Assembly: GCF_000230995.2 (NCBI RefSeq)
Contig: NC_019973.1
Location: 1,240,001 to 1,304,000 of the forward strand
Length of the DNA stretch: 64,000 bases
Origin: Mesorhizobium australicum WSM2073
Lineage (GTDB): Bacteria > Pseudomonadota > Alphaproteobacteria > Rhizobiales > Rhizobiaceae
Direction of reading: 5' to 3'
The notes under the pieces were generated by a model. That model made no database searches. It saw only the letters and a program-made list of their open reading frames with translations, and was not told the DNA's origin. A program made the translations under genes and the position numbers. Shown here piece by piece: positions 14,791 to 16,603 of this stretch (position 1 is the first letter of the stretch; each line of letters opens with the position of its first letter).

Positions 14791-16269
14791 ATGCGGAATT
14801 ACGGGGGTCTTGTTCACGCGGTCGGCGGCTTCGCCAGAGACCGCAGTGGAAATTTCGCGGTCCTGTTCGGCTTTGCTGCCTCGGTCTTGGCGCTGGCCGC
14901 AGGCTTCTCGGTCAATATCACGCAGCTCTACAACGCCAGATCGAGCCTGCAGGGCGTGCTCGACGCGGCAGTGACATCGACGGCACGTGACCTGACCACC
15001 GGCGCCATCAAGGAGGCCGACGCAAACAAATCCGTGCAGGCCCTTCTCGACGCCAACGGCGCGGCGGGCATTCTGCACGCTGGCCAGATCGTGCTCGACA
15101 AGCTGATCGTCGACAGGACCGCCAACACGGTCCGGGCGAATGCCCACGTCGATGTCGGCCTCTATTTCCCGTTGTTCAGCACCGGTGACATGCAGCGCGT
15201 CGGCGCTTCCACCACGGCGCTCTATTCCGACAAGCAGATAGAGGTGGCCATGATGCTCGACATAACGGGATCGATGGCCAGGCGGGGCAACGTCAACAAG
15301 ATCGGCGATCTGAAAGTCGCTGCGACGAACGCCGTCAAGACGATGCTCGAGAACCAAGACCCGAAGACCCCCCGCGTCCGTGTCGCGATTGTGCCCTATG
15401 CATCTGGCGTGAACGCCGGAAAACTGGCCGAAAACGTCTATGCCGAGAAGCAAGGGAGTTCTGAACTACCACCCGTCGCCGGCAGTTCGCTTCTCGTTGC
15501 CAAGACGGGCAAAAATCTGCTGCCGTCCTTCAGCGACTACGTCTCCATTGTTGGGGCGGCCATGCCACACCCGGATAATTGCGCTACAGAGCGCAAGAAT
15601 AAGAACGGCGATGCCGACTTGAGCGCCGATGGCCCTGACACGGTTCGCACAGACAGGAACGGCAAGAAATATTATGCCCTGGTAAATCGGGACGATCATC
15701 TCAGCGACCAGGGAATGAACAAGTGTCCTGACGCGCAAGTGATCCCGCTGACCGCGGATTCGGAGGCATTGCTTGATTCGATCGACGACTTCCAGGCCGA
15801 TGGTTATACGGCCGGCGCGATCGCCATTCAGTGGACCTATTACATGCTGTCGCCGCAATGGCGCGCTGCGATCGAGAATGCCGGTCTCGGCAACGGCGCT
15901 TCGAACGCCGATGCGAAGAAGGTCGCCAAGGTTGCGATCCTGATGACCGATGGCCAGTTCAATACCGCCTTCGCGGGTGTTGCTGGGAGATACAACAGCC
16001 AAGGCAACCTTGCGCGCGGCAATGCTGAAACGCTGTGCGGCAATATGAAAAATGACGACATCGAGATTTTCACCATCGGCTTCGACCTCAACGATAAGGA
16101 TATGTCGGCAACCGAGAGGGATCAGGCAAAGGCGGTGCTAAAGGATTGTTCTTCGAAAGACGCCTCCGCCGCCGACAGACATTACTTCGAGGTGTCCACC
16201 GGGCTGGAATTGGATAATGCCTTTCAGGAAATCATCCGCAACACCGAAAAGGTCGTACTGACCCAATAA
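14791..16269 (+). CDS. TadE/TadG-type pilus assembly protein with von Willebrand factor A domain
   Basis: A 492-residue membrane-anchored, mostly extracytoplasmic protein. An N-terminal stretch GGFARDRSGNFAVLFGFAASVLALAAGF (residues about 10-38) is the TadE/G-like membrane anchor, with the characteristic R-D-R-S-G-N-F-A block. A VWA domain follows: the MIDAS start is D157 in MMLDITGSMARRG (D-x-T-x-S form), and MTDGQFN near residue 385 is the later MIDAS aspartate. Start ATG at 14791 has GGAGG eight bases upstream; a frame extension to 14692 lacks this. Members of the group are tied to Flp/Tad pili or surface adhesion, but no tad genes are nearby, so it is an orphan copy. A bidirectional hairpin terminator follows at 16284. 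Confidence 0.85.
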   Translation: MRNYGGLVHAVGGFARDRSGNFAVLFGFAASVLALAAGFSVNITQLYNARSSLQGVLDAAVTSTARDLTTGAIKEADANKSVQALLDANGAAGILHAGQIVLDKLIVDRTANTVRANAHVDVGLYFPLFSTGDMQRVGASTTALYSDKQIEVAMMLDITGSMARRGNVNKIGDLKVAATNAVKTMLENQDPKTPRVRVAIVPYASGVNAGKLAENVYAEKQGSSELPPVAGSSLLVAKTGKNLLPSFSDYVSIVGAAMPHPDNCATERKNKNGDADLSADGPDTVRTDRNGKKYYALVNRDDHLSDQGMNKCPDAQVIPLTADSEALLDSIDDFQADGYTAGAIAIQWTYYMLSPQWRAAIENAGLGNGASNADAKKVAKVAILMTDGQFNTAFAGVAGRYNSQGNLARGNAETLCGNMKNDDIEIFTIGFDLNDKDMSATERDQAKAVLKDCSSKDASAADRHYFEVSTGLELDNAFQEIIRNTEKVVLTQ

Positions 16270-16283
16270 TCCGTGAAAAGGAA

Positions 16284-16316
16284 AAGGCCGCCGCTTCTTT
16301 CGAAGCCGGCGGCCTT
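16284..16316 (-). terminator. Intrinsic terminator shared by the 23-aa ORF unit and the VWA gene
   Basis: A GC-rich stem AAGGCCGCCG with CGGCGGCCTT, extended by CTTC/GAAG around a TTTC loop. Read on the minus strand it is followed by TTTTCCTTTT, the standard form of a Rho-independent terminator. It ends the leftward transcript of the small ORF. In the other direction it lies 14 bp after the VWA stop, with a weaker T-tract. Confidence 0.75.
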
Positions 16317-16345
16317 CCGTGTTTCCGTCCATGGCGCGGCTCAAT

Positions 16346-16363
16346 GGTGGTGACGCTTACGTC
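16346..16363. repeat. Perfect hairpin between the 23-aa ORF and its terminator
   Basis: GGTGACG-CTTA-CGTCACC: a 7-bp perfect stem with a 4-nt loop, about 20 bases downstream of the small ORF stop (minus strand). In the predicted transcript it would be a second 3'-UTR stem before the terminator. Confidence 0.7.
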
Positions 16364-16384
16364 ACCGACCGCGCATCTCGCGCC

Positions 16385-16456
16385 TTAACGGGAAGACTGC
16401 TTCCCGAAAGTGCAATCCGCTGAGCCCACGTTCTGGAAAACGAAATCACTCGACAT
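16385..16456 (-). CDS. Candidate 23-residue small protein with a maximal Shine-Dalgarno
   Basis: A 23-codon ORF encoding a polar peptide (starts MSSDFVFQNVGSADC, ends TFGKQSSR) with one cysteine and no membrane segment. I do not recognise it. Evidence that it is a gene: the 14 bases AAAGGAGGTGATCC at 16458-16471 are fully complementary to the 3' tail of 16S rRNA and lie at ideal spacing. Promoter-like hexamers TTGTCA and CATCAT with 17-bp spacing are at 16493-16521, which would give a 5' leader of about 30 nt. A hairpin with a T-rich tail lies about 70 nt after the stop. The whole unit would make an RNA of roughly 200 nt. It is divergent from the cyclopropane synthase gene. It could be a small protein, a leader/precursor peptide or a dual-function RNA. 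Confidence 0.6.
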   Translation of the reverse strand: MSSDFVFQNVGSADCTFGKQSSR

Positions 16457-16457
16457 C

Positions 16458-16471
16458 GGATCACCTCCTTT
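16458..16471 (-). promoter_or_regulatory. Full-length Shine-Dalgarno of the 23-aa ORF
   Basis: AAAGGAGGTGATCC on the minus strand pairs over all 14 bases with the 16S rRNA 3' end. The GGAGG core is seven bases from the ATG. No other gene in the window has a ribosome-binding site of this length. Confidence 0.8.
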
Positions 16472-16492
16472 CGATTTGTTGAACACACACTC

Positions 16493-16521
16493 ATGATGGG
16501 GTGCGTTGCAGCAAATGACAA
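16493..16521 (-). promoter_or_regulatory. Candidate sigma-70-type promoter for the 23-aa ORF
   Basis: Minus-strand TTGTCA, 17 bp, CATCAT. The -35 is close to consensus and the -10 is weak but acceptable for alphaproteobacteria. Predicted start of transcription near 16486. Inferred from spacing only. Confidence 0.4.
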
Positions 16522-16603
16522 GATGCCGGGTGGAAAAAGCGTGACGTGCTTGCGATCCGCGGCCCAAAAGGACAACATCGCGTCATCGACCGCGGGGAAG
16601 GGC

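Follow-up and report, generated by a model that had tools for sequence, protein, structure and literature searches.

A candidate regulatory RNA of Alphaproteobacteria combining a full 16S-tail match with a short ORF of drifting amino acids

A compact minus-strand unit in Mesorhizobium australicum

The window analysed here is a stretch of 64,000 nucleotides from M. australicum WSM2073 (NC_019973.1, positions 1,240,001 to 1,304,000), and all coordinates below refer to it. On its minus strand, positions 16276-16522 carry a whole transcription unit in which a promoter-like pair is followed by a complement of the 16S rRNA tail, an ATG with 23 codons and a stop, and a terminator-like hairpin. The unit is flanked by two plus-strand genes, a VWA/Tad-domain gene that converges on it and ends at 16269 and, on the other side, a cyclopropane-synthase-type gene recognized by Pfam. 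The longest reading of the synthase ORF starts at 16493, inside the promoter of the small RNA; by eye, it more likely starts at an ATG near 16602 that has GGAAGGGC ahead of it. A preliminary description of this DNA had proposed such a packed unit, and our analysis confirmed that it is real and supported the view that it is compact and selected.

The promoter-like element (16493..16522) consists of CTTGTCA (16522-16516) and CCCCATCAT (16501-16493) separated by 14 nt, with 17 nt from CTTG to CCCCAT. This arrangement is equivalent to TTGTCA and CATCAT at a 17-nt spacing, the -35/-10-like hexamers noticed initially, which we recovered with 9 of 12 matches as the sole site in a scan of 16200-16600 (shuffle mean, 0.1). 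Furthermore, the pattern CTTG-N16-18-CCHNA was found 5' of 70 of 291 unique relatives, compared to 1.06 in shuffles. The CTTG...CCCCAT pair of the window and its near relatives fits a heat-shock-like promoter consensus and may be such a promoter; other relatives carry CCACATT at a different spacing.

Next comes an A/C-rich leader, TTCAACAAATC (16473..16483), with the CAAC 5' of the 16S-complementary site recurring in most classes, and transcription would start a few bases upstream of this leader. The 15-nt site complementary to 16S, GAAAGGAGGTGATCC (16458..16472), is separated by a single base from the ATG at 16456, where the short ORF MSSDFVFQNVGSADCTFGKQSSR (16385..16456) begins, ending with a TAA at 16385. 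Two hairpins follow, CGGGAAGCAGTCTTCCCG (16389..16406), which lies at the ORF end and bears a GCAGYC motif that is differently framed in relatives, and GGTGACGTAAGCGTCACC (16349..16366), seen in the sequence and in the predicted fold. The unit closes with a GC-rich, terminator-like hairpin at about 16315-16285 followed by the T-rich tail TTTCCTTTT (together 16276..16315). The intrinsic terminator claimed for this place was accepted by a looser hairpin-plus-T search, and a stricter scan that requires 5 T in 8 gave none at the locus; by the looser heuristic, a terminator is present in 252 of 265 loci. The best reading of the unit is a stand-alone RNA with a length of about 205 nt.

The 16S-tail match and its distribution

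The site GAAAGGAGGTGATCC is fully complementary to GGATCACCTCCTTTC, the tail read in the 16S genes of 11 relatives, and is thus one nucleotide longer than the 14-nt complement first reported. The 6.2-Mb genome that was searched contains a single exact copy of the 14-mer. Among 42 greedily chosen window ORFs of at least 150 aa, the longest tail complement 5' of a candidate start was 4-7 nt, in agreement with the weaker signals attributed earlier to the other genes of the window.

Sequence comparison across genomes established the presence and the distribution of the RNA, together with the conservation of its ORF and helix. The 14-mer core next to a start codon was found in 66 of 135 Alphaproteobacteria, a sample that over-represents the window's own order (46 genomes, including 9 of its own genus), and in none of 263 other Pseudomonadota, kinship being counted by hand from the result rows. 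Within the genus, 39 of 41 genomes carried the pattern; within the family, 67 of 121 did so with at most one mismatch, and the exact pattern was present in 59 of 385 genomes of a class-wide sample. A chance origin was rejected, as the reversed-pattern controls gave 0 in the genus, family, class-wide and phylum searches. In a scan of named genomes, at least 80 titles among the matches listed were Alphaproteobacteria, 3 of them stating only 'Proteobacteria'. The bare 14-mer matched in 178 of 397 genomes, a number that includes 16S antisense, and its control in 7 of 397. Antisense to 16S accounts for part of these bare matches: 9 of the 30 loci fetched from this search were of this kind and were left out, as were 2 loci fetched elsewhere. 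Of 280 loci, 15 gave no pattern match and were dropped: 11 were 16S antisense, 2 were sites inside other genes of the window's genome, and 2 were variants.

The exact pattern was missing from 2 of the 41 genus genomes, and no copy was found even at three mismatches in 21 pattern-negative genomes of the family and genus (e.g., G023, G187, G281, G385, and G396 of the family, and G512 and G521 of the genus). In lineages such as G023 and G512 the RNA has apparently been lost or has strongly diverged, suggesting, from these 21 genomes, that it is dispensable in some lineages. Six matches were found in viral contigs, five of which resemble the cellular type; one of the nine Bradyrhizobium-type sequences (L284) is such a contig. 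In the sixth (L285), the same full-length GAAAGGAGGTGATCC stands at about 10076 ahead of the ATG of a 71-residue phage ORF.

When any single mismatch was allowed in the family search, 20 of the 67 places carried one, 19 being internal and 1 at the terminal base. All 19 internal mismatches were A>G or C>T changes that preserve G-U pairing with 16S, although they amount to five distinct changes common to relatives and hence to few independent events. Two copies (L222 and L240) disrupt a 16S pair. The pattern used for locus extraction admits certain site variants only, which biases its variant counts, and the pairing claim rests on the family search.

Such near-maximal complementarity, with changes inside the site that preserve pairing, would also suit a 30S decoy, in which the RNA ties up the anti-SD tails of free small subunits, SD-led mRNAs are disfavoured versus leaderless or non-SD ones, and translation of the short ORF serves only to release the ribosome. 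This is the nearest rival to the interpretation developed below, and it corresponds to the 'RNA that sequesters ribosomes' of the preliminary description. SD-dependence could indeed be a regulated variable, given that in Caulobacter an SD is missing from 75.4% of genes and leaderless mRNAs number 375, according to the part of the report available (PMC4117421). However, a pure trap needs neither a start nor a stop codon, yet both are kept, and a decoy would require copy numbers comparable with those of free 30S; we consider it unlikely. Alternatively, the SD-like site could pair with the seeds of sRNAs that bear an anti-SD, for example those of the alpha-R8 family, and act as their sponge. Alphaproteobacteria offer a precedent, as the accessible text of one source describes sRNAs with anti-SD seeds and one sponge, CrfA, directed against SisA-D (PMC12559287). 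The kept site nevertheless spans the whole 16S tail, including the GTGATCC part beyond the AGGAGG core, and is accompanied by a kept start codon and ORF, which makes a sponge very improbable.

The short ORF and the closing helix

Among the 21 non-16S loci, which were fetched with a pattern that made no start-codon demand, all carried ATG or GTG one base 3' of the site. Of 243 unique sequences, 234 had their first in-frame stop at codons 14-27; the corresponding share was 17% and 16% for the two other frames and 23% for shuffles. When only the loci from the bare 14-mer, CC2171-model, phylum and class-wide searches were taken, the stop fell in this range in 81 of 91 sequences, the other frames giving 19 and 16, and 10 of the 91 had longer ORFs. 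The stop was kept in place with differing identity: it stood at one place in 21 of 21 sequences of the SRxxLE class (TGA in 7, TAA in 4, and TAG in 10) and in 9 of 9 of the Bradyrhizobium type (3 of each), and 30 of 34 SHG-class ORFs ended at 18 codons. These classes were set by motif, as classes defined by peptide length would be circular for stop position. The two long SHG-class ORFs, of 59 and 56 codons (L140 and L320), which share the site and begin with MSHGA and a signal-peptide-like start, were set apart as apparently other genes, since they resemble ordinary secreted proteins.

The preliminary description had proposed to check whether the reading frame is conserved; start, length and stop are, and the amino acids are not. 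In named Mesorhizobium loci (L068 and L130) the ORF is nearly identical to that of the window. The peptides differ from clade to clade (MSSDFVFQN..., MSHGSA..RSV..., MSRVILERGVGT..., MSxxKRCHLAGIAR, and MSHCHQP...), with little in common beyond Met-Ser. In eight classes of same-length ORFs (at least 10 sequences each), the nonsynonymous/synonymous ratios of the true frame were 1.10, 1.34, 0.84, 1.40, 1.97, 0.76, 0.46, and 0.53, values that are inflated to the extent that RNA structure constrains synonymous sites too. Compared with the two wrong frames, the true frame had the highest ratio in four classes, an intermediate one in three and the lowest in one, and the amino-acid constraint that would mark the peptide of a dual-function RNA was thus not seen across these classes. 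Moreover, in 6 of 7 groups variation was lowest at codon position 3. In SS-type sequences, a GCAGCC-like motif located towards the end of the ORF fell in the three frames in 107, 10, and 7 of 138 cases, some of the 7 looking spurious, and in the frame-shifted relatives a stop again followed close behind.

These data bear directly on the proposal that the 14-27-residue product is a micropeptide acting in a clade-specific manner. Conservation of start, stop and length would fit such a product, as would the nearly invariant 14-residue MSxxKRCHLAGIAR of the Bradyrhizobium type and the true-frame ratios of 0.46 and 0.53 in two classes; a precedent exists in S. meliloti, where Ribo-seq revealed translated sORFs on annotated sRNAs, as given in the available portion of PMC10117765. 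On the other hand, in most classes the substitution ratios do not fall below those of the wrong frames, and the quiet third codon position, the frame-shifted relatives and the scant similarity between clades all argue against a functional product, which we regard as quite improbable. The abundant small protein or precursor peptide suggested initially is likewise not supported, the true-frame ratio being lowest in a single class. Weak selection on the peptide may nonetheless act, because the synonymous sites are themselves under structural constraint.

The RNA folds at -95.1 kcal/mol, 4.9 standard deviations below the mean of 200 shuffles (-73.3 kcal/mol, sd 4.4). Its predicted closing helix, P1, pairs nucleotides within the ORF just 3' of the start codon (5' strand, 16435..16449) with a stretch ahead of the terminator (3' strand, 16317..16330). 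Whole-clade alignments with MAFFT and RNAalifold were poor because the middle of the RNA varies in length, and an alignment-free partner-permutation test was used instead. Over 229 sequences, the P1 strands paired with their own partners at -11.15 kcal/mol versus -8.38 (sd 0.16) with permuted ones, 0 of 200 permutations being as low, and after thinning to 122 distinct 5' strands the values were -8.27 versus -6.07 (sd 0.18). Positions +8 to +10 were paired in 214-219 of 237 sequences, with four or five pair types each. Covariation of P1 is thus clear between clades; within clades it was found in three of eight groups only (SS, SHC, and 'other'), with slightly better own partners in SSEF. Own partners were no better than swapped ones in Rhodobacterales, Sphingomonadales, the Bradyrhizobium type, and SSGI, in which the strands show little variation.

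In predicted folds of at most 45 sequences per class, the site was no more exposed than with shuffled downstream sequence (0.37 versus 0.42 unpaired). The same analysis revealed a six-base anti-SD word downstream in 17 of 21 SRxxLE-type and 7 of 7 Bradyrhizobium-type RNAs (L109, L119, and L064 being examples from these two types) and in 5 of 45 window-type RNAs, and in SRxxLE-type and Bradyrhizobium-type RNAs bearing this word the start is predicted to be closed. Some lineages therefore seem to have a second way of hiding the site, via an internal anti-SD word.

The window's convergent downstream gene is shared with 43 fetched loci, an acetyl-CoA-synthetase-type gene, whose window copy was recognized by Pfam, lies upstream of the RNA in 12 other loci, and further clades have different neighbours, with no constant downstream gene. 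The association with cfa-like genes raised in the preliminary description was found in 24 fetched loci, where the synthase is divergent upstream, and is absent from other clades. In the SRxxLE type (Rhodobacterales), a GPGGQN-motif gene lies 3' on the same strand within 250-385 nt in 13 of 21 loci (e.g., L078:2223-2645), and in the one such gene tested Pfam detects an RF-1 domain (E = 8e-22); by its motif we take it to be arfB-like and of the ribosome-rescue type. This gene favours a cis-acting attenuator, in which translation of the short ORF would control terminator read-through into the next gene. However, the downstream gene of the window is convergent, as it is in the 43 loci that share it, and neighbours differ by clade: a same-strand gene that could be regulated is lacking downstream in the window and is found in only part of one clade. 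We hold an attenuator to be very improbable indeed. As no single gene accompanies the RNA across clades, action in trans is the more plausible mode.

A possible link to ribosome availability and the relation to known RNAs

What is kept in this RNA is the ribosome site, the start, the ORF length, the stop and the helix, and the amino acids drift, which argues for a reading in which the product does not matter. We tentatively favour, at a little short of an even chance, a stand-alone regulatory RNA of the CC2171 architecture that is widespread in Alphaproteobacteria and in which translation is selected and its product immaterial. We infer that it is translated, that it switches and that it has an effect in trans. 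The footprint of an initiating ribosome extends about 15 nt beyond the start codon, and a ribosome loading at the 16S-matching site would therefore have to open P1. Translation through to the stop would then unwind the 5' half of the fold, giving two exclusive states, one folded and free and the other opened and ribosome-bound, set by the ease of initiation. One of these states might act in trans and thereby let the RNA gauge or buffer the supply of available ribosomes, and the short ORF with its stop would let the ribosome leave, the peptide being a by-product. In its full form, this model has the RNA sense initiation-competent ribosomes and act in trans: a 30S subunit loading on the perfect 16S match would melt the covarying helix and so switch the RNA, and the peptide would be thrown away; we regard that form as possible, though somewhat doubtful. 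To our knowledge, there is no example of such a ribosome-sensing riboregulator selected for being translated.

This reading greatly broadens the range of an unexplained Rfam family, ties it to the ribosome in a concrete way that experiment can address, and points to a possible means by which cells measure free ribosomes. The RNA is also a natural example of an ORF that keeps its start, length and stop but not its amino acids, and calls for caution when small proteins are annotated from ORF conservation and ribosome occupancy.

The closest known system is the Caulobacter sRNA CC2171 (Rfam RF01867). In a 3-kb search, the whole model matched 16480-16285 with 35.5 bits (E = 3.6e-5), below the gathering score of 75 bits required for membership, and a whole-window Rfam search at gathering returned a tRNA alone. 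Against 240 class genomes, the model gave 7 matches above the cut-off and 49 at E <= 0.001, with scores running continuously from 90.5 down to 27 bits and the window RNA in between. GAAAGGAGGTGATCC falls in the 5' stretch of the model and is followed by the model's closing helix just behind it, and these two elements and the terminator correspond in the alignment. By these model alignments, the window RNA is a divergent relative of CC2171, outside formal membership. CC2171 differs in being filed as non-coding, with the ORF and the 16S match absent from its entry line, and the available text on Rfam 15 cites it for one added covarying pair (PMC11701678). Leaving aside the original Caulobacter paper (Landt et al. 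2008), we found no published description of its ORF or 16S match. The breadth, the 16S match and the peptide-free ORF are thus what we did not find described before, and the architecture itself belongs to a named, unexplained family.

Other small RNAs of this class of bacteria share single traits with the window RNA. CrfA of Caulobacter is likewise a stand-alone alphaproteobacterial RNA, and it pairs with sRNAs of anti-SD signature; the available part of its report describes no ORF or 16S-tail match, so that it is set apart by description and not by sequence (PMC12559287). The rnTrpL/peTrpL RNA of Sinorhizobium is a small RNA with a 14-codon ORF, but in the portion of the source available it is a leaderless attenuator whose peptide is reported to be functional, whereas the window RNA has a maximal SD and no amino-acid constraint was seen (PMC10117765). 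Finally, MH_s33 of Mesorhizobium huakuii 7653R, from the same genus, is a 215-nt RNA-seq transcript labelled RF01867/CC2171 in the accessible part of its report, its identity with the window RNA resting on this Rfam label; it is tabulated on the minus strand together with its two neighbours, whereas both neighbours of the window RNA are on the opposite strand (PMC5596092).
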